The notes below the pieces were generated by a model, which ran no database searches, was not told the DNA's origin, and worked only from the letters and a program-made list of their open reading frames with translations. This document shows positions 10,163-27,605 of a stretch of DNA of 28,098 nucleotides, piece after piece (the first letter of the stretch is position 1; each line of letters begins with the position of its first letter). The DNA comes from a virus, in the IMG/VR virus record IMGVR_UViG_3300021957_000228, positions 1 through 28,098 of that record, one strand, 5' to 3'. Both the position numbers and the translations under genes were made by a program.

Positions 10163-11188
10163 ATGGCAAACAAAGATTTATTCAAGCAAGCTATTGCTGA
10201 AGCTAAATCTGTAAGAGAAGCTGCTATTGCTAACGCTAAAGAAGCTTTAGAAGAGTCTTTAACTCCTCATCTAAAAGATATGTTAGCTGCTAAACTTCAA
10301 GAGATGGATGATTCATCTAACGAAGAAGAAGTAGTTAAAGAATCTGAAGATGATGTAGAAGAAGTAACTACTGAAGCAACAGAAGAAGAAGCAATGGAAG
10401 GAACTTACAGTGAAGAAGAAGCAATGGAAGAAGCTGAGGATGATGCAGAAGAAGCTGCAGACGAAGCGGAAGAAGAAGAAGTTGCATCTGAAGATGAGCC
10501 AGCAGACGACGAAGATCTATCTGATCTTTCAGTAGAAGATTTTAAAGACCTAATTAGAGATATCATTAGCCAAGAAATGGGTGGTGATGCTGAAGATATG
10601 GGACCTGAAGTTGGAGCTGATATGGACGCTGGAGCAGAATTAGAAGAACCAGGCGAAGGGGAACCAATGGCTGGAGAAGAAGGTGACGAAGAGATTGACT
10701 TAGACGAACTATTAGCAGAACTAGACGAACTATCAGAAGGCGAAAGTGAAGATGATATGGAAGAAGGTAAAAAAGAAGAAGAAGCAATGGAAGAAGTTGC
10801 AATTGATTCTACTGTTAATGAAGAAACAAAAGAAGAACTCAAAGGAGCTTTAGAAACTATTGAAACTTTAAGAAGTGAACTTAACGAAGTTAATTTACTG
10901 AATTCAAAGTTACTTTATGTAAACAAAATATTCAAAGCTAATAGCTTAAGTGAAGCACAGAAAGTAAACATTATTGCTGCTTTCGATAAAGCTGAAACTG
11001 TGAAAGAAGTAAAATTAGTATTTGAAACAGTTAACGAAAATGTGGTTACTAAAAAAGAGACTACTATTAAAGAACACAAAGGATCTGCATCCAAAGCAAC
11101 TGGCGTTACAACTCGTAAGCCAGAAGTAATTAGTGAAGTATCTAGCGCTGTTCTAAGAATGCAAAAATTAGCTGGAATTATTAAATAA
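10163..11188 (+). CDS. 22: Prohead scaffolding core protein (gp22-like)
   Basis: The scaffold forms the inner core around which the capsid shell assembles and is later degraded by the prohead protease. This 341-aa protein starts with a basic/alanine-rich helix (residues 1-45). A very acidic Glu/Asp-rich middle follows (about 50-215, with the phrase EEAMEE repeated), then a coiled-coil-like segment (LETIETLRSELNEVNLLNSK, about 229-248). It ends in RMQKLAGIIK, a C-terminus I associate with this family in marine T4-like phages. The composition, helical character and position directly before the capsid gene, after the protease, support the call; T4 gp22 is 269 aa. Many glutamate sites could be cut during maturation. 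The leader has two hairpins and no Shine-Dalgarno sequence. Confidence 0.85.
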   Translation: MANKDLFKQAIAEAKSVREAAIANAKEALEESLTPHLKDMLAAKLQEMDDSSNEEEVVKESEDDVEEVTTEATEEEAMEGTYSEEEAMEEAEDDAEEAADEAEEEEVASEDEPADDEDLSDLSVEDFKDLIRDIISQEMGGDAEDMGPEVGADMDAGAELEEPGEGEPMAGEEGDEEIDLDELLAELDELSEGESEDDMEEGKKEEEAMEEVAIDSTVNEETKEELKGALETIETLRSELNEVNLLNSKLLYVNKIFKANSLSEAQKVNIIAAFDKAETVKEVKLVFETVNENVVTKKETTIKEHKGSASKATGVTTRKPEVISEVSSAVLRMQKLAGIIK

Positions 11189-16472: not shown

Positions 16473-19400
16473 ATGACTAAGTTCACCGGCAGACTCTCAG
16501 GCTCTTTAGCCTTTATAAACAATGGCATTGTGTCCACCCAGCTTGTCCCGGGTGCAGAAGCATTACAGTTAACAGGTTCTCTTAATATATCAGGATCCCA
16601 ACTTACTTTCAATGGAAGAAATGTAATACAGGAGATTGACAACTTATCAAACCCTACATCTGCTTCTCTTGGACCATTAAATAGACATACAGCATCATTA
16701 AACTTATATACTGCATCTAATAATGTTAATATAAGTAATATACTCGGATTAACGTCAAGTATACCTCTTTTAAATTCTTTAACTTCATCATATGTTACTT
16801 CACCTGAATTAGCAAATATAATATCATCATCTATACAGATAAGCGATTTAGGATTTATAAAAGACTTTCCATCAGATATCATATCATCTTCTGCACAAAT
16901 AACTGCATTAGGTTTTGACATTAATGCTACCGTTCCATCAGGGACTGTATCATCATCTGTACAGATAGCTGAATTAGGATTTATAACAGGAAGTTCTGGG
17001 GAAAGTATTCCTTCCGGAACTGTATCATCTTCAGCACAAATTAGTAGTTTTGGGTTTATTTCTTCTTCCGATGTACCTTACAATGGAAATAGATTGATAT
17101 CTAATACTGCTCACCCTTTATTTAACATATTTAATCCAGGGACTGACGGTACTGTGACAGATTTCTTAGATGCTTTATTTTATCCTAATACTAGCCCAGT
17201 TATTAATACCGGGAATCAAGTTATAGCAGAATATACTGCTAATGGTACAAATATAGTAACACTTAATGCAACAGATCCTGAAGGTAATAGCGTTACTTTT
17301 TCATTAGACGGAACTTACACTGCAGGATTAGTAACAATTTCATCTGGAGTATTAAAATTAAATGCTAAAGCCATATCTCCTACTTTTAACACAGCAGATA
17401 GAGGAGACGGAACATTAGCACATCCAGTTCAAATAACAGTAACAGATTCTATTGGAGCTACCTCTACTAAAACAATATACATACACGTTACTCCTAACCA
17501 GGCACCTAAATTTAGACACCCTAACGTAGGGAGTAATATAATATCTTCATTTAGCGTATCAAGAAATGAAAATGCTAGTAGTGGAGAGATAGCCAAAATA
17601 TATTTTACAGATACAGAAGCAGATACTATTACGATAGATTCAACTGCTGATGTAAATGGACATTTTCAAGTAGCTCAATTTAGTAATTACGTATCTATAA
17701 GACAGTTAACAGCTTCTCTTGACTATGAAAGCATTACTTCTTATAATTTCTCTGTAACAGCATCTGATTCACATTATCAGACAGGAGAAGATAACGATTC
17801 ATTTACTGCTCTACCTATTACTATAAATGTAACAGATAATACACAACCTTCAGTAAATAACCAAACATTAGCTGGAGTAAATGAGAGTAGTGGTAACGGA
17901 GCATCAGCAGGAACAATAACAACAACAGATCCAGAAGGAGATACAGTAGTAATTAAAAATGCAGTTCTAGCTGGATTAGAGATTGACGGCAGTAACGTTA
18001 GTCTTGGCACATATTCAGGAACAGGTCATACAGATCCTAACGAAGACGCATTTGATATTTCTTCTAATGGTGTTGTAACAAGAAAAACAGGAGTTAATAT
18101 AAACTCAGATTTAATTAATAAGTATATCTACCGAGTTACTGTAACTGACTCATATAATAATGGTACAGACACAGGATTAATAAGTATACCTATAAGTGAT
18201 GATACCGTCCCAATAGTAAGTGGAGATACAACATTATATGTAATAGAGTCTGCAGAAGCTAATGATAGTGTATACGATAATGCAAACGGATATTCAGGTA
18301 CTACTTCAAGATTTACTGCTAATCAATCAGTAAATTGGAGTGTAACTCCATCAAATATATTTTCTATTAACTCTTCAGGGTATATTTCCCTTACTAATGA
18401 TCTAGCAGATTCTTCAAATGAAGGAGGAGATCAAATATCAGGTACTGTAACTGCAACTAACTCTTTTAGTAGTGTAGGAACGAAGTCATTTATAGTTAAT
18501 GTAACAGATAATCAAGCACCAAATATTACTTTTACTAATACTAATAGTAATTTAAACACAAATAAAGCAAAAACAGGGAATACTTTAACAACAATAAGTT
18601 TTAGTGATCCAGAAGGAAATGGTATAGATATTAGTTCATTTGTTTTTGACAATAACGGAAATAATAAAATAACAGCTACCACTGTTAATAATAGTACATA
18701 TCAAGTTAAACCATTGTCTAACTTAACTGCAGGTAGTTACACATTTAGTGCTACTATATCAGATGTAACAGGATTTGCAACTAGAACTTCATCTCATACT
18801 ATTAACATAGCTCAAGCAGATAACGGTACTTTAAGTCAGAACGGTACTTTTAGAATAATAGAATCTGGAACAAGTGGAGATGATATAAAAATTAATAGTG
18901 ACGGTAGAACAGGAACTACCGCGGATGTAAATGTAAGTTACTCTCCTAATTATGGAGGAGCAACAGTTCAAGCTTTTACTTCTAGTTTATCATATATAGA
19001 TGTTAGTTCAACTGGTAAGCTTTCTTTAGGTGATAATTTAGTTGGTTCACCTTATGCAGCTGGTGATACTATAGCTACTACAATATCGTATCAAGATCAA
19101 TATAATAATCACGGGTCTTCTAACGTAAACATTGCTGTAGTAGCAAATCAAGCACCTATAGTTACTGTAACTGAAGAATCAGGTTTAGAATCTGACAATA
19201 TAACAAATGGAACAACAGTAGCTATTGTAGGTATAACAGATGCAGAAGCAGATTATCCAATTACTGTTAACCTGACAGGAACTAACGCTGGCTCGTTTAA
19301 TGTCTCAAGTCAAAACGGTAACGGAACTTCTTGGAAGATAACAGCTAAAGGAGCATTAACCGCAGGTACTTACAACTTTGTAGTAAACGCTACAGACTCA

Positions 19401-20021
19401 TTTGGAAAAATAGGTACTGATTCAGCAACAATTGTAGTAACTCAATCATCAGATTACGGAAAAGTGTATGTATATACTTCAACATACGGCTCTGATGCAG
19501 GGTTTAACGCTAACTACTTAGGAGTAATGGGAGCAAGCACAGTTAATTTTGATACTCCTCCTGAAGTTACTGGTTATACTGCTAATACTTCATCTCCTTT
19601 TTACAAATTTAAATCTGGAGAAATAGGTAATAGCACAATTAACTTAGCAGGAGGTAAAGTAGCTACCTTACAAGCAGAAGCAACAGGTCAAGCTATGTTG
19701 GATAATGTTTTAGCAGCTATAGGTTCAATATCAACATCAACAACAGGACAGGTAATAGTTCTATTCCCTTCCGGTTCTGATATGGTTGTTCCTACATCTA
19801 TTGAAGAATCATTTAATAACGCAATAGGTGGAGCAGTACCATGTATGAATGTAGATGGTAATGGATTCGGAATAGAATCAGGAGAATTACATTCTATTAC
19901 TTTAGATTCAAGTCATCTTGGATATAACGAATGGTTTGTTTTTGGAAGAAAATCACAAAATGCAATTGGATCTAATTTCACAATCAGATTAGTACCAGCA
20001 GGTTTAAGTTTACCAACATAA
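16473..20021 (+). CDS. Large Ig/cadherin-like repeat adhesin
   Basis: A 1182-aa, Ser/Thr/Asn-rich, beta-structured virion protein. Residues 1-110 are a probable anchoring region (MTKFTGRLSGSLAFINNGIV). Residues 112-200 hold four copies of a 20-25-residue unit with core (I/V)(I/V)SSS(A/V/I)QI. A linker with DGTVTDFLDALFYPNTSP follows. From about 230 to 989 there are roughly seven domains of 100-120 residues with cadherin-like signatures (NATDPEGNSV, TTTDPEGDTV, SFSDPEGNGI). They are separated by linkers such as VTPNQAP, VTDNTQP, VTDNQAP and VVANQAP. The acidic TDPEG and NQAP spacing suggests calcium-stiffened rods, by family knowledge. The C-terminal 190 residues form a different domain, probably binding or capping. 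I infer a long fibre or decoration adhesin. No signal peptide is seen. It is co-directional with and 18 bp from the next fibre gene. Confidence 0.88.
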   Translation: MTKFTGRLSGSLAFINNGIVSTQLVPGAEALQLTGSLNISGSQLTFNGRNVIQEIDNLSNPTSASLGPLNRHTASLNLYTASNNVNISNILGLTSSIPLLNSLTSSYVTSPELANIISSSIQISDLGFIKDFPSDIISSSAQITALGFDINATVPSGTVSSSVQIAELGFITGSSGESIPSGTVSSSAQISSFGFISSSDVPYNGNRLISNTAHPLFNIFNPGTDGTVTDFLDALFYPNTSPVINTGNQVIAEYTANGTNIVTLNATDPEGNSVTFSLDGTYTAGLVTISSGVLKLNAKAISPTFNTADRGDGTLAHPVQITVTDSIGATSTKTIYIHVTPNQAPKFRHPNVGSNIISSFSVSRNENASSGEIAKIYFTDTEADTITIDSTADVNGHFQVAQFSNYVSIRQLTASLDYESITSYNFSVTASDSHYQTGEDNDSFTALPITINVTDNTQPSVNNQTLAGVNESSGNGASAGTITTTDPEGDTVVIKNAVLAGLEIDGSNVSLGTYSGTGHTDPNEDAFDISSNGVVTRKTGVNINSDLINKYIYRVTVTDSYNNGTDTGLISIPISDDTVPIVSGDTTLYVIESAEANDSVYDNANGYSGTTSRFTANQSVNWSVTPSNIFSINSSGYISLTNDLADSSNEGGDQISGTVTATNSFSSVGTKSFIVNVTDNQAPNITFTNTNSNLNTNKAKTGNTLTTISFSDPEGNGIDISSFVFDNNGNNKITATTVNNSTYQVKPLSNLTAGSYTFSATISDVTGFATRTSSHTINIAQADNGTLSQNGTFRIIESGTSGDDIKINSDGRTGTTADVNVSYSPNYGGATVQAFTSSLSYIDVSSTGKLSLGDNLVGSPYAAGDTIATTISYQDQYNNHGSSNVNIAVVANQAPIVTVTEESGLESDNITNGTTVAIVGITDAEADYPITVNLTGTNAGSFNVSSQNGNGTSWKITAKGALTAGTYNFVVNATDSFGKIGTDSATIVVTQSSDYGKVYVYTSTYGSDAGFNANYLGVMGASTVNFDTPPEVTGYTANTSSPFYKFKSGEIGNSTINLAGGKVATLQAEATGQAMLDNVLAAIGSISTSTTGQVIVLFPSGSDMVVPTSIEESFNNAIGGAVPCMNVDGNGFGIESGELHSITLDSSHLGYNEWFVFGRKSQNAIGSNFTIRLVPAGLSLPT
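16806..17072 (+). repeat. Four coding repeats with SSSAQI core
   Basis: Inside the large adhesin gene, residues 112-131, 132-153, 154-178 and 179-200 are degenerate copies of one unit. Cores are IISSSIQISDLGFI, IISSSAQITALGFD, VSSSVQIAELGFI and VSSSAQISSFGFI. The last two share the prefix PSGT. A single further copy occurs in the next gene at 20610-20669 (IPNGIVSSSAQITS). They are probably beta-structured shaft units of a trimeric fibre. Confidence 0.8.
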
Positions 20022-20039
20022 AAAAATAGATATAGACAA

Positions 20040-21203
20040 ATGCCATTATTCAGTTCAAAATTAGAGTTAACAAGTGCAGCCAGTGGTTCTGGAATTGCGA
20101 TAGCGGATGTAGATTTTATTCGTGGAGCATTTCGTACAGTAGCTAATACTGGTGCATTGAATAACATCCCCGTTACTCAAACATCTAATGGACAGATAGT
20201 ATGGGTAGAAGGAGAATCAGCTACATATCAAGCTACAGTTACACTAGCAGATTATGTAAATACAATTGAAGATACAGTTTCATGGTCAGTATTTACTGGC
20301 TTCGGTTCTGGAGGTGGAGGTTCAGTAGATTTTTCTACAACTTCAACTGACTTACACTCAAATAATGCAGGCGGTACATTAACAGTAGATTCTGGATTAT
20401 CTTATGTAGGTGGTGAATATATTTCGATTACGTATCCATTAGATATGACTAATGTACAAATTGCTGTAGTGACTGCTTATAGTGGAACGCAATTAACATT
20501 TTCACATGTATCAAATAATGGTAACTTATTAAATAGTAACGGTACTTGGATTATTAACCTCAGTGGTGCACCAGCACCAACCGTATATGATTATCCAGCC
20601 CTATCTAATATACCTAACGGAATAGTCTCTTCATCAGCTCAAATTACATCAGCATTATCGTCTAGTGATTTAGATATGGATGGAAACAAAGTTTTGTTTT
20701 CTAACGTATATTCTCAATTAGCAGATTTACCAAGCGCATCTAAGTACCACGGAATGTTTGCTCATGTACATGCAACAGGTAAAGCATATTTTGCTCATGG
20801 AGGTAATTGGGTCGAGCTAGCAAATGCTGGAGCAGGAGGTGATATAACATCTGTAGTAGCAGGAAGCGGATTAAGTGGAGGCGGAACCTCAGATGATGTA
20901 ACAATCACTTTAGATACTGGCTCATCACATTTTATAGATGCAATTACAGGATTATCTAATAGCGGTATATTTAGCCAAACAGGATCATACTACTCTACAA
21001 ATAACAATATAGAAATAAATGGTTCATTAGAACTAAAGTATGAAGGAAAAGGAAATCCTTTCTCTATAGCTTCAGGCTCTAAAGAACTAATAAAAATAAA
21101 TAACCAAGGGGTATTAATATTTACTTCTCAATCAACTACACCTACAGAGATAGATGGCGGAATGTATAGAGATTTAAATGGTAATTTTTTCTTAGGAATG
21201 TAA
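20040..21203 (+). CDS. Fibre protein with shared SSSAQI module
   Basis: A 387-aa structural protein. The N-terminal part (MPLFSSKLELTSAASGSGIA) and a section with TSNGQIVWVEGESATYQATV look beta-rich. Residues 191-210 (IPNGIVSSSAQITSALSSSD) repeat the unit found four times in the preceding adhesin. Then come YHGMFAHVHATGKAYFAHGG and a Gly-rich hinge (VAGSGLSGGGTSDDVTITLD). The end (INGSLELKYEGKG, ITFTS-like strands and TPTEIDGGMYRDLNGNFFLG) resembles the C-terminal module found in fibre proteins of marine T4-like phages. It probably forms a trimeric fibre section. Only 18 bases separate it from the adhesin upstream, with no promoter-like motif, so the two are likely co-transcribed. The exact fibre position is unknown. 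Confidence 0.8.
   Translation: MPLFSSKLELTSAASGSGIAIADVDFIRGAFRTVANTGALNNIPVTQTSNGQIVWVEGESATYQATVTLADYVNTIEDTVSWSVFTGFGSGGGGSVDFSTTSTDLHSNNAGGTLTVDSGLSYVGGEYISITYPLDMTNVQIAVVTAYSGTQLTFSHVSNNGNLLNSNGTWIINLSGAPAPTVYDYPALSNIPNGIVSSSAQITSALSSSDLDMDGNKVLFSNVYSQLADLPSASKYHGMFAHVHATGKAYFAHGGNWVELANAGAGGDITSVVAGSGLSGGGTSDDVTITLDTGSSHFIDAITGLSNSGIFSQTGSYYSTNNNIEINGSLELKYEGKGNPFSIASGSKELIKINNQGVLIFTSQSTTPTEIDGGMYRDLNGNFFLGM
20610..20669 (+). repeat. Single SSSAQI module shared with preceding gene
   Basis: Residues 191-210 of the fibre protein (IPNGIVSSSAQITSALSSSD) match the unit present four times at 16806-17072 (for example IPSGTVSSSAQISSFGFISS). A module shared by two adjacent genes points to exchange or duplication of fibre segments. 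Confidence 0.65.
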
Positions 21204-22928: not shown

Positions 22929-24275
22929 ATGCCGAATTGGAAAAAATTAATAACTAGTGGTTCAGACGCTAGTTTAAGTAGCCTATCCCTATCAGGAGTA
23001 TCAGGGCAAAGTAGTGAAAAAACTTCACTAATGATTAATGGGAATGGATTAATCGGAACTAGAGAATTAGGTTCTCTTGCATTCTCATCAGCAACATATA
23101 ACAACTATACATTACCGTTAGGTTCATCATCTACAAGAGGTGGATTTAAGATTGGTTACTCGGAGAGTGGTAAAAACTACCCAGTTGAACTTTCCTCAGA
23201 AAAGATGTACGTAAATGTTCCTTGGACTGATACAAATACTCAATTATCAGATGCGGAAATAGCAGCTTTAGGGTATATTAAAACAGCTAGTGATACAAAT
23301 ACACAGAATACCTATTCAACTTCAGTTGTATCCTCAAGTGGTACTAAGTTAAGATTAACAGGTGCTGGAGAAGCTGGTGCAACTACAGATGATGTAAAAT
23401 TTGTTGGTGCAGGTGCAACTACTGTAAGTAGAACAGATGCAAGCACTATCACTATAACATCAACAGATACAAATACCGATACAGACACTCAACGAAGTGA
23501 CAAAGAAATTGAAGAAGTTATTGAAAAAAATGTAAACCCCGTAGTAAGTGCTACAGTATCTAATGATACTACCACTTTTACTAAGCAAGATGGTACTACA
23601 TTTGCATTAACAACATCAGATGCTAATAACAACACTGTAACTTCAATCAGAAAAGATAATTCAGGTACTTATCGTACTGGAAATATCAACTTAGTCGGTG
23701 GGGATAATGTAACTATAGCAGAAAAAGCATCAGGTGAATTTACTATTTCGTCAACAGATACAAATACAGATACAAATACTCAAAGAAGTGATGAAGAAAT
23801 TAGAGATGTAGCATCAGCGCAATGGACTAATGGTACAAACACTACTGTAGTTAAAGATGATGCTAATAATACCATTAAAATTAATTCTGTAAATACAACT
23901 TACCAAATTAGAAATGGTGAGCTATCACAACACAACTTTACCAGTGCATTAAAAGATAAATTAGATGCTATACCTTTTGTACAGGAAAACGATAATATTG
24001 ATATAGGTACAGAAACAATTATGACTGTTTATACTAGCCCTTGGAATGCAGTATTCTTTGATTACGTAGTAATAAAGGGCGGTAATATGAGAGCTGGTAC
24101 TGTAACAGCTGTTAATGACGCTACAAATGTAGAGTTTATAGAAACATCAACAGCTGATTTAGGAGATACCTCAGATGTAAAGCTTTTTTGCGATATTGAC
24201 ACAGATAGTATGAGATTCAGAGCTACGGTTAAGTCAAATGACTGGAAAGTAAAAGTTTTACCTAGAATGATATAA
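22929..24275 (+). CDS. Fibre protein with TDTNTQ repeats
   Basis: A 448-aa structural protein. Its opening MPNWKKLITSGSDASLSSL matches the start of the protein at 21280, suggesting attachment to the same site. Three units with a TDTNTQ-x-SD-x-EI core occur at about residues 99, 182 and 279: TDTNTQLSDAEIAALGY, TDTDTQRSDKEIEEV and TDTNTQRSDEEIRDV. They are separated by beta-rich stretches (TTFTKQDGTTFALTTSD, TNTTVVKDDANNTIKI). The C-terminal 95 residues (AVFFDYVVIKGGNMRAGTVT, VEFIETSTADLGDTSDVK, RFRATVKSNDWKVKV) match a known type of phage fibre tip domain, from memory. This looks like a trimeric shaft with a globular end. It precedes the lectin genes by 1 bp, so its C-terminus may carry or interact with them. 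Confidence 0.83.
   Translation: MPNWKKLITSGSDASLSSLSLSGVSGQSSEKTSLMINGNGLIGTRELGSLAFSSATYNNYTLPLGSSSTRGGFKIGYSESGKNYPVELSSEKMYVNVPWTDTNTQLSDAEIAALGYIKTASDTNTQNTYSTSVVSSSGTKLRLTGAGEAGATTDDVKFVGAGATTVSRTDASTITITSTDTNTDTDTQRSDKEIEEVIEKNVNPVVSATVSNDTTTFTKQDGTTFALTTSDANNNTVTSIRKDNSGTYRTGNINLVGGDNVTIAEKASGEFTISSTDTNTDTNTQRSDEEIRDVASAQWTNGTNTTVVKDDANNTIKINSVNTTYQIRNGELSQHNFTSALKDKLDAIPFVQENDNIDIGTETIMTVYTSPWNAVFFDYVVIKGGNMRAGTVTAVNDATNVEFIETSTADLGDTSDVKLFCDIDTDSMRFRATVKSNDWKVKVLPRMI
23220..23810 (+). repeat. Three TDTNTQ coding repeats
   Basis: Units with core TDTNTQ-x-SD-x-EI lie near nucleotides 23224, 23460 and 23751. The last two are almost identical over about 55 bases (TCAACAGATACAAATAC at each start) and are 291 bases, exactly 97 codons, apart. 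Confidence 0.7.
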
Positions 24276-24276
24276 T

Positions 24277-24996
24277 ATGGGAATATTTAGAGGACCAGTA
24301 TATAACAATGCTAGTGATATAGAAGGACCAACAGGGTGGTATAGAATAAATACGTCTCAAGGCATCGCAACTGTATGGGTAGACCAAGAATACGATGGAG
24401 GAGGATGGGTTATGGTTTTAGCCAACAGAAGATATACTGCTGGTATGAATAACCTAGAATATGTAGATGCTATCAATAATTGTAATTATAGAATAAACGG
24501 TAACGACGATACTACGAACGATGTACAAGATGCAAACAGAAAACTCTTAAATAAATCATACTCAGACGTTAATGCTTGGGTAGGTTTAAAGTTTTGGAGT
24601 GAATTAGCAGGAAGGGTATCATCTAATAGTATTAAAGTAGTACAGTATGTTCATACCTCAACAGTACCACTATCAGGTACACATACATATAGGTCAAGTT
24701 GGACTATGTCTGGCTTCTCTAGCACATATCGCTTTCAATCACGTTCAAATTTAACTAACATAGTAGGAGGTGTTACTCCCGGTATGTATTCTAGCGGAAA
24801 TGATTTAACAACATTTGATAACGATCAAGATACAAATGGCGGTAACTGTTCTACTTATTACAACAATAATCCCTGGTGGTATTCTTCTTGTTGGACTGGA
24901 AATTATTTTGCAGGCGGCGGCTATATAGACGGTCCGTATTGGGTAAGTTCTAACTCTGCTAATTCTTTTAGCTATGGCGCAGTATATATAAAATAA
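24277..24996 (+). CDS. Fibrinogen-like (FReD) lectin adhesin
   Basis: A 239-aa protein that is almost entirely one fibrinogen C-terminal-type domain, a lectin fold best known from animal ficolins and intelectin relatives. Signatures are GPTGWYRINTSQGIATVWVD (residues 17-36) leading into EYDGGGWVMVLANRR (38-52), which matches the DGGGW-T-x-x-RR hallmark. A likely calcium site is TTFDNDQDTNGGNC (178-191; D181, D183, D185). Then come NPWWYSSCWTGNYFAGGGY (199-216, one continuous run) and IDGPYWVSSNSANSFSYGAVYIK at the end. C191 and C205 are placed like the conserved second disulfide; the first cysteine of the animal proteins is replaced by W34, and C69 is unpaired by sequence. I infer calcium-dependent binding of host surface sugar, probably N-acetylated, as in ficolins. 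It is preceded by a fibre gene and followed by small genes and two LamG proteins. Confidence 0.85.
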   Translation: MGIFRGPVYNNASDIEGPTGWYRINTSQGIATVWVDQEYDGGGWVMVLANRRYTAGMNNLEYVDAINNCNYRINGNDDTTNDVQDANRKLLNKSYSDVNAWVGLKFWSELAGRVSSNSIKVVQYVHTSTVPLSGTHTYRSSWTMSGFSSTYRFQSRSNLTNIVGGVTPGMYSSGNDLTTFDNDQDTNGGNCSTYYNNNPWWYSSCWTGNYFAGGGYIDGPYWVSSNSANSFSYGAVYIK

Positions 24997-25002
24997 AAAG
25001 AT

Positions 25003-25215
25003 ATGGAGACAGAATTAAAAGATATGAAATTAGTACTCACAATATCGGGTAATACATTAACTCGAGTAGTAGAAGATTTAGACGGTAATACTATATGGAC
25101 TAATGGCGGAGAATATTATGATGATACTATGCCCTCTACACTTTTAGATGAGTATGAAACACAAATGAAACAACTTCCATTTTGGAATATAGTACAAGTA
25201 AGTAAAAATATATAA
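25003..25215 (+). CDS. Small 70-aa protein in adhesin cluster
   Basis: A short acidic protein, 6 bp after the fibrinogen-like gene and 3 bp before the next. It has two beta-like strands (MKLVLTISGNTLTRVVEDLD) and an acidic helix (LLDEYETQMKQLPFW). A second ATG at 25024 would give MKLVLTIS and may be the true start; there is no Shine-Dalgarno sequence to decide. I do not recognise it. Its size and position suggest a fibre-associated accessory or assembly protein. Confidence 0.68.
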   Translation: METELKDMKLVLTISGNTLTRVVEDLDGNTIWTNGGEYYDDTMPSTLLDEYETQMKQLPFWNIVQVSKNI

Positions 25216-25218
25216 ACT

Positions 25219-25545
25219 ATGTTTGAAAACAGAAGATGGCTGGTGATTCCAGTTGATAAAATAGATGATATAGACTTTAATCAGGTTTTGCAGCCAAATA
25301 AAGAATCTTTAAGAATATCAATAGATGGGACTAAGACTTTTATTAAGTATGAAGTAAATATTATAAAAGAAACTTACACCGAAACTTATCAAAACCCAGA
25401 AACAGAAGAAGAATTAACTAATACGTTTCAAGCAGGTACTTACGGAAGACCTTCAGTATATAGTGAAGAATACACAGAATATACTCATTTAGAAATACTA
25501 GAATTACTTTCAACTGAACAGTGGACTGAACAAATAGAAGAATAA
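25219..25545 (+). CDS. 108-aa accessory protein, possibly fibre assembly
   Basis: An acidic protein starting FENRRWLVIPVDKIDDIDFN, then VLQPNKESLRISIDGTKTFI and KYEVN. I recall this opening from small proteins beside fibre genes in marine T4-like phages, but their role is not established; a tail fibre assembly-type chaperone is the natural guess. The C-terminal half is Glu/Thr-rich and probably helical (YTHLEILELLSTEQWTEQI). It abuts the LamG gene by 1 bp. No membrane or catalytic motif is seen. Confidence 0.72.
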   Translation: MFENRRWLVIPVDKIDDIDFNQVLQPNKESLRISIDGTKTFIKYEVNIIKETYTETYQNPETEEELTNTFQAGTYGRPSVYSEEYTEYTHLEILELLSTEQWTEQIEE

Positions 25546-25546
25546 C

Positions 25547-26299
25547 ATGGGAACAAAAGTAGGACCTAAAATAAATACAGATGGCTTAATATTTTGTGCA
25601 GACCCTGCAAACCCTAAAAGCTTTGATGTGTCTACAAACGAATTAACAGATATTATAGGTAATAAGTCAATGACCTTAGGAACTAACACAACTGATGTTA
25701 CCACCTACGGTGTTAGGCACTTTGCTTCAACAGCTGGTGAAACTGGTTCTGGTACTTTAGATACCGGTATTAGGTACGGAACTATCGGTAATGGAGATAA
25801 AGTAGTTGGAGGAGATACATCATTCACCATTCATTTCTGGGTTTATAAAACAACAGGTGCTCCAAATAACTGGTGGCATACCATAACAGATGGACATTCA
25901 GGAGATATACTTACAGTTCAAAACGGCGGTAATGGGAACTTTGTGATTAGTATGAATAGCAGTTATGGAGGAAGCGGGGCAAGTGGTACTTATTCTGGAG
26001 TCAACTGGGCATCATGTAAAGAAAACTCATGGAATATGATTGGAGTTAGGTATGATATAGGAACTACTAAAATAAAAGCATTCGTCGGCAACCCAGATAA
26101 CGGAGTTACTTTTAGTAGTGAGTTAACTACATCACCAATTAATACAGCTTTTAAAATAAGAAATTTTAACGGATGGGGATCTGCCCAAAGTAGTTATCAC
26201 GCTGATAATTCTTTTAGTTATGTAACGGTGTACGATACTGCTTTATCCGACGATCAAATTGCTGAGAATTTTAATCAAATGAAACCTAGATTTAAATAA
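25547..26299 (+). CDS. LamG/concanavalin A-like lectin adhesin
   Basis: A 250-aa protein with one jelly-roll lectin domain. The opening GPKINTDGLIFCADPANPKS matches a common phage adhesin start and resembles that of the next gene (GPHLIKDNLTFGYD). Lectin-type strands follow: SFTIHFWVYKTTGAPNNWWH, ENSWNMIGVRYDIGTTKIKA and FSYVTVYDTALSDDQIAENF. The SFTIHFWVY and LSDDQIAENF elements are typical of LamG_3-type domains. I infer binding of cell-surface carbohydrate. It is preceded by the 108-aa protein (1 bp) and followed by the second lectin protein (1 bp). The domain fills residues 70-245; no shaft is present, so it probably attaches through partner proteins. Confidence 0.82.
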   Translation: MGTKVGPKINTDGLIFCADPANPKSFDVSTNELTDIIGNKSMTLGTNTTDVTTYGVRHFASTAGETGSGTLDTGIRYGTIGNGDKVVGGDTSFTIHFWVYKTTGAPNNWWHTITDGHSGDILTVQNGGNGNFVISMNSSYGGSGASGTYSGVNWASCKENSWNMIGVRYDIGTTKIKAFVGNPDNGVTFSSELTTSPINTAFKIRNFNGWGSAQSSYHADNSFSYVTVYDTALSDDQIAENFNQMKPRFK

Positions 26300-26300
26300 T

Positions 26301-27605
26301 ATGTACACAGGACCTCATTTAATAAAGGATAATTTAACATTCGGATATGACACCGGGTACGGAGTAGCAGATAACATTACATCTACAAGATTCTATAAAG
26401 GTGCACCTACTGTAAATTACATACATGGACAAAACGCGGTAGCACAGGATTCTTATACTACTTACACCGCAACTTCTGCAGGCTCTTGGAATACTAAGCA
26501 CCCTAATGCAATTCGTGCTTATAATGCTGGTGGTGGTGATATAACAGGATATATTAATTCAGGAGTTGGAGACTGGCAAAATACTTATCACGCACATTGG
26601 CAATACGACCCAATTTTAAAAAAACCCGTAGTGGTGATGAACGATTTCGACGGTCAATGGAAAGCAAAGAGCTACGGTACTGGATTAGGTACATGGACTT
26701 CGCAAGGTAAAACCCACGGAGATACTTATACGATCTCTTGGTTACAATGGGTGGATAATCTATCAAAAAACGCTAGAGCTGGATTATATACAAAAAACTC
26801 ATCAGGTGGCAATGGATTTCACGATGGACAAGCTAATAGTGCATCAGCATATAATACAAAGTTAAACACCTGGCAGAGAGTATACCAGACCTATACAACT
26901 AGCGCTAATAGAGATTTAAATCAATCATTAGCTTCAATATACATGTACGGGCATTATAGCCCAAGAGCTACAGTTAAAATTGCAGATGTACAGTTTACAT
27001 GGGGTAGTACCCCATTACCATATTCAGCAAAATCTGAAAGAACATCAACAGAATCTCTTATAGACCTAACAAACAAGTCAAATATTGATGTATCCACTAT
27101 ATCGTTTGATACTTATGGCCAACCTGAGTTTGACGGTACAGATGATATAATTAATACAGGTTTACTGAGCGGTAGAAACCCTAGCTCTAGCCCTTTTTCA
27201 ATAGAAGCCATAGTAAAATCAGATACAACATCAGGTAACCATATGTGGCTAGATGCTACTAATAATGGAAGCAGTCAGAGACTATACTGTGCTCATGCTT
27301 CTAAAGGGAGTAATACACCTATGGGAATACAGGCTAGTGGATGGTCTCATTCAATACCTCAAGATACAGAGTTTCATCATTACGTTTTAGTAATGGATGG
27401 TTCTGTGGCTAGATTGTATAATAATGGAGAACCACATTCAACAAAAAATTATACATCATATCAGATTCAGTCAATAAATGTTGGAGGAAGAAGCGGATAT
27501 AGATGGGTAGGTAAAATACCTGTTTTCAAAATACATAATGAAATATTTACTGCTGATAAAGTAAAACATAATTTTAACGTCTATAAAAATAGATTTGGAA
27601 TTTAA
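26301..27605 (+). CDS. Two-domain adhesin: CBM-like plus LamG-like
   Basis: A 434-aa protein. Residues 1-20 (MYTGPHLIKDNLTFGYDTGY) are related to the start of the preceding lectin protein. A jelly-roll carbohydrate-binding-type domain follows (about 80-235), with GDTYTISWLQWVDN, NTWQRVYQTYTTSANRDL and YGHYSPRATVKIADVQFTWG. The last ends with a typical edge strand of such modules (PLPYSAKSE). The C-terminal part (about 265-434) is LamG-like: PSSSPFSIEAIVKSDTTSGN, EFHHYVLVMDGSVARLYNNG and SGYRWVGKIPVFKIHNEIFT. A receptor-binding protein with two carbohydrate-binding folds is the best reading. Ligands cannot be told from sequence. Its stop is followed by a promoter-like motif and a new gene. Confidence 0.8.
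   Translation: MYTGPHLIKDNLTFGYDTGYGVADNITSTRFYKGAPTVNYIHGQNAVAQDSYTTYTATSAGSWNTKHPNAIRAYNAGGGDITGYINSGVGDWQNTYHAHWQYDPILKKPVVVMNDFDGQWKAKSYGTGLGTWTSQGKTHGDTYTISWLQWVDNLSKNARAGLYTKNSSGGNGFHDGQANSASAYNTKLNTWQRVYQTYTTSANRDLNQSLASIYMYGHYSPRATVKIADVQFTWGSTPLPYSAKSERTSTESLIDLTNKSNIDVSTISFDTYGQPEFDGTDDIINTGLLSGRNPSSSPFSIEAIVKSDTTSGNHMWLDATNNGSSQRLYCAHASKGSNTPMGIQASGWSHSIPQDTEFHHYVLVMDGSVARLYNNGEPHSTKNYTSYQIQSINVGGRSGYRWVGKIPVFKIHNEIFTADKVKHNFNVYKNRFGI

Follow-up and report, generated by a model that had tools for sequence, protein, structure and literature searches.

The 239 amino acid protein encoded at 24277..24996 of a metagenomic record of a marine phage (IMG/VR IMGVR_UViG_3300021957_000228, whose 28,098 nucleotides are called the window here) has a fibrinogen-like (FReD) fold and rather probably serves a T4-like phage, with a host probably among Bacteroidota of aquatic habitats, as an exchangeable adhesin of the tail. 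The adhesin would probably recognise glycans of the host surface in a calcium-dependent way. This reading draws on the fold, on the positions for calcium and disulfide, on the context of fibre and LamG genes, on a constant small partner gene and on a homologue fused to a fibre. Phages are described to use lectin folds known from animal immunity, i.e. C-type, C1q, LamG and discoidin, with FReD absent from that survey (PMC7824862), and in the literature phage "fibrinogen" proteins were found mentioned only in passing (PMC3909814; PMC12629253). If the adhesin reading is correct, the ficolin fold is to be added to the phage lectin folds, here as an adhesin that stands alone and has a small partner of its own. 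Annotations of phage FReDs are already known; what is new is a stand-alone phage FReD family among fibre genes, with a constant partner and a docking-like peptide. The invariant small partner gene, the common N-terminal peptide and closer bacterial FReDs all go beyond the first-pass annotation of this DNA.

The FReD fold of the 239 amino acid ORF is certain for practical purposes. Its score for Fibrinogen_C of Pfam (PF00147) is 24.1 bits against a curated cut-off of 22, and the same model was matched by 16 of 20 family members scanned singly (E <= 0.01; best 1.7e-10). Ficolin-3 was found with the ORF as phmmer query (7.4e-8), and a profile search of the PDB with the family gave ficolin-3, ANGPTL6, tenascin, fibrinogen and FIBCD1 (best E 4.4e-10), the matches running in order through the GGGW part on the N-terminal side and through the C-terminal part. 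The AF2 model used, built from a 29-sequence alignment, has a pLDDT of 87.9 and a pTM of 0.90 (pLDDT was 30 from a 4-sequence alignment), and every one of its 50 best matches in the PDB is a FReD (Foldseek, E from 4.9e-9; TM 0.53-0.61 by query length; identity 13-20%). The fold had been proposed from the sequence together with the profile, structure prediction and Foldseek checks, and all of these now agree with it, as does the Pfam match above cut-off (E 4.4e-10; pTM 0.90; 50/50 FReDs). The gene is under purifying selection, with a dN of 0.21 and a dS of 1.32 in the comparison with locus L001 (dN/dS about 0.16) and a dN/dS of 0.16-0.30 for closer gene pairs.

Functional positions were mapped from FIBCD1, in which calcium is bound by D393, by D395 and by the carbonyls of residues 397 and 399, a disulfide joins C401 and C414 with a cis peptide preceding C414, and the acetyl pocket (S1) is formed by Y405, H415, Y431 and W443 (PMC3908420). 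Setting C401 equal to C191 gives D183, D185, 187, 189 and Y195, and C414 equal to C205 gives W206 for H415, while Y431 was placed on Y216 by profile alignment; columns were counted over 28 scorable family members. The predicted calcium ligands are the side chains of D183 and D185 and the carbonyls of N187 and G189, and a disulfide C191-C205 is predicted. The D-x-D calcium site and the two C-terminal cysteines noticed in the first-pass annotation were both found again, the former as D181-x-D183-x-D185 just before C191 (D183 and D185 in 27/28 each) and the latter as C191 and C205 (each 28/28). Its DGGGW...RR hallmark was retained in part: DGGGW is present at residues 40-44, but the RR is not a family feature, with R51 in 24/28 and R52 in only 7/28. 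The only family member without the calcium Asp pair is the FReD of L071 (L071:7989-8720; TTYDNYGYWNACA).

Two tyrosines fit a pocket of the FIBCD1 S1 type, Y195 for Y405 (27/28) and Y216 for Y431 (26/28), whereas His415 is replaced by W206, the column being Trp in 28/28 and never His. Y195, W206 and Y216 are predicted to be the aromatic residues of the pocket, probably together with Y233, which is perhaps the counterpart of W443. As far as the alignment tells, the family has kept its pocket, though with Trp for His; acetyl specificity cannot be claimed. It is quite unlikely that the FReD binds no ligand and serves the fibre only as a structural cap or for trimerisation at its end: the change of the acetyl-site His to Trp and the divergence of some phage FReD-like ends would suit such a role, but the calcium and predicted pocket positions are among the best-kept columns of the family alignment, and a mere cap would not need them. 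For an adhesin, calcium-dependent glycan binding is plausible; the glycan, possibly with acetyl groups, would belong to the host surface and be bound in the calcium-organised pocket beside the C191-C205 loop.

Ficolins, tachylectin 5A and FIBCD1 have the same fold as the phage protein (Foldseek E down to about 1e-8, TM 0.53-0.60 by query length), and have in common with it the calcium Asp pair, the C-terminal disulfide positions and two pocket tyrosines. The phage FReD differs from these animal lectins by the lack of the N-terminal disulfide (no conserved N-terminal Cys was found in the family alignment), by the Trp at the position of His415 and by a chain that carries no stalk of the collagen or coiled-coil type, with 14-19% identity in structural alignments. 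Of two scans of genome contigs the first gave no relatives and the second two bacterial FReDs, in secreted-type multidomain proteins of the MAG contigs L115 (Tissierellia; Pfam 2.8e-18) and L114 (Myxococcales; Pfam 7.7e-14). The phage family profile matches them with E values of 8.4e-31 and 9.3e-19, respectively, scaled to the size of the PDB search, and by this measure they are the FReDs closest to the phage family outside phages. They have in common with it the pattern GNCA-x-x-YGN-x-x-WWY-x-x-CW, including the Trp for the acetyl-site His, but lie within large proteins with TIG or P-domains and keep the N-terminal Cys pair which is absent in the phage FReDs. Recent capture from animals is unlikely and was rejected as an origin, since the bacterial FReDs match the phage family profile far better than animal FReDs do; by this measure the phage proteins are to be placed near the bacterial FReDs.

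In the library of viral structures (BFVD) the best matches of the model include fibrinogen-named proteins of Prochlorococcus phage P-SSM4, an uncultured phage and Pseudomonas phage PaBG. The first-pass statement that the fold is uncommon as a stand-alone phage receptor-binding protein needs the correction that FReD-like proteins as such are already annotated in P-SSM4, PaBG and uncultured phages. P-SSM4 Q58LR8, PaBG S5VVF2, P-RSM4_044 and a protein of S-CAM4 are phage-encoded and Fibrinogen_C-like, as is the window family, but these proteins of cyanophages and other phages are only weakly similar to it and many are end domains of longer fibre proteins. P-RSM4_044 (L037:5671-6555), annotated as hypothetical and below the Pfam cut-off, has a fibre-type N-terminus and a divergent FReD-like C-terminus and adjoins a fibre gene.

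The FReD gene of the window lies in the following series of genes:

20040..21203, + strand, baseplate wedge / tail-fibre connector-like protein (PHROG tail fibre protein 4.5e-13; baseplate wedge tail fibre connector 7.9e-7)
22929..24275, + strand, 448-aa fibre-like protein (weak PHROG match, "virion structural protein", 5.9e-5)
24277..24996, + strand, stand-alone FReD protein, 239 aa plus stop, with the FReD at about residues 17 to 239
25003..25215, + strand, 70-aa partner ORF (cluster c2), starting 6 nt after the FReD stop
25219..25545, + strand, 108-aa ORF (cluster c3, by clustering), often in FReD neighbourhoods; no Pfam match
25547..26299, + strand, LamG-type protein (cluster c0, classed by clustering, own Pfam match absent), N-terminus MGTKVGP
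26301..27605, + strand, 434-aa LamG (Laminin_G_3) protein (Pfam 2.1e-9), N-terminus MYTGP

Judged by its matches, the connector-like gene marks the tail region. The adhesin-type neighbourhood of a stand-alone protein, as first described, is borne out by the PHROG and Pfam matches of the flanking genes and by clustering. Only 1 nt separates the stop of the 448-aa gene from the FReD start, and the C-terminal 88 amino acids and residues 55-121 of its product recur in other phages, in one of them in an annotated head fibre protein. This likeness, together with a weak match to a PHROG of the head and packaging class, would fit a virion decoration that sticks to polysaccharides of the environment or of animals (chitin, algal glycans, mucus) and concentrates the phage near its hosts, rather than a protein for the host receptor; FReDs such as FIBCD1 do bind chitin (PMC3908420). 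We consider the decoration unlikely, as the neighbourhood contains the baseplate/fibre connector and the fused homologue described below is a fibre tip. Further adhesion-type domains are present upstream in a 1182-aa protein (16473-20021) matching Cadherin (2.1e-8) and Big_13 (1.2e-7).

The cultured phages nearest in their major capsid protein are Flavobacterium phage immuto (69%) and then Microcystis phage Mel-JY01 (52%), and the window phage appears to be T4-like with a likely host in the Bacteroidota. In immuto two LamG proteins follow directly after a fibre-like gene; they are named structural by the depositors, a label that was not traced to an experiment. These LamG tail proteins occupy the same genomic slot as the FReD and carry the same kind of N-terminal peptide, but their fold, a concanavalin-like sandwich, is unrelated. 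The stand-alone adhesins of the gp38 type in T-even phages are likewise encoded by a separate gene adjoining the fibre gene, the likeness being one of gene arrangement.

An ORF of about 70 amino acids, of one family, was found directly downstream of the FReD at all 27 stand-alone loci (26 directly, and L068 through L101 of the same contig), its start being mostly a few bases from the FReD stop or overlapping it. For the reverse search a DNA pattern for the C-terminus of the partner was used, because the partner alignment is without conserved stretches, and 22 contigs were found. The FReD is directly upstream of the partner in 21 of these, the remaining one having only 249 nt of upstream sequence, but as the pattern was built from FReD-linked copies, distant free-standing partners could be missed. 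Most of the 22 contigs were known before; the new testable ones (L096, L106 and L111) have the FReD in 3/3. The partner ORF has no Pfam match, no credible PHROG match and no match in the cultured-phage collection, in which it was also not found beside FReD-like proteins, whether of cyanophages or of other phages. An assignment as Rz-like spanin (PHROG E 0.024) was rejected, since only 2/16 members match and other weak matches point elsewhere.

The 70-aa protein may be a dedicated folding or attachment partner of the FReD. A possible, though somewhat doubtful, extension is that the two genes form a portable cassette, in which the small chaperone or adaptor and the N-terminal peptide would plug the lectin into the fibres of quite different phages. 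The strict pairing of two genes with variable neighbours, which resembles a mobile cassette, could also be explained by a non-virion pair acting during infection, e.g. a cell-surface factor blocking other phages and controlled by the small ORF. Such a pair is very improbable, given that no signal peptide is evident by eye in the FReD N-terminus, that this N-terminus has a peptide in common with the LamG neighbours, and that a homologue is fused to a fibre.

The adhesin reading accounts for this peptide as a docking element. The N-terminus of the window FReD is MGIFRGP, and MAEIHGP begins both the FReD of L054 and an immuto LamG protein. An N-terminus of the form M-x(2-6)-GP is present in 13/28 FReDs and 37/81 LamG proteins, compared to 3/271 of the remaining plus-strand ORFs at these loci. 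The counts are descriptive, since members of a group are related to one another and the Fisher p-values overstate their independence; the peptide is also short and absent from about half of either group. One of these three other ORFs (L057:10310-11065) is itself a borderline Fibrinogen_C protein. The pattern is suggestive of a common docking peptide, by which FReD and LamG proteins would dock on a common site of the virion, and if so it points to one socket for interchangeable lectins.

In L077 and L079 a 734-aa fibre ends in the FReD, which is preceded by a phage-fibre-type N-terminus and a Gly_rich_2 domain. The adjoining 602-aa protein is similar in its N-terminus and glycine-rich stretch but has, by its C-terminal motif, a LamG-like end. 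FReD and LamG thus sit at one and the same position of a common scaffold. In L077 the fused FReD is followed by a 68-aa ORF, which may or may not be a homologue of the partner (E 0.45). Residues 118-206 of the 734-aa fibre (L077:6447-8651) are similar to proteins of the haloarchaeal viruses HRTV-16 and Hardycor2.

Cultured phages gave no match to the window FReD protein and no isolate with this FReD family, the best tblastn match being P-RSM4/S-TIM4 with an E value of about 0.8, whereas more than 40 further FReD loci were found in IMG/VR (36-82% identity, many of them near-copies). The upstream gene differs among these loci, its C-termini being classed by eye: very long fibres with an S74-like end in L039, L042 and L051, fibres with the end HPTKEGKKL...EGPE in L046, L054, L074 and others, LamG proteins in L044, L057, L066 and L068, and further types at other loci. 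An S74-type chaperone or another fibre-type C-terminus is frequent in the upstream genes, by the same classification. The L057 phage carries, besides its family FReD, a second and different FReD-like protein of 251 amino acids (10310-11065), also with a GP-type N-terminus and with a Fibrinogen_C score of 21.8 bits against the cut-off of 22. In three related phages the adhesin cluster is followed by two genes which, as an impression from sequence, look like sugar transferases (L001:10617-12483, L003:9345-11140 and L004:4103-5892).
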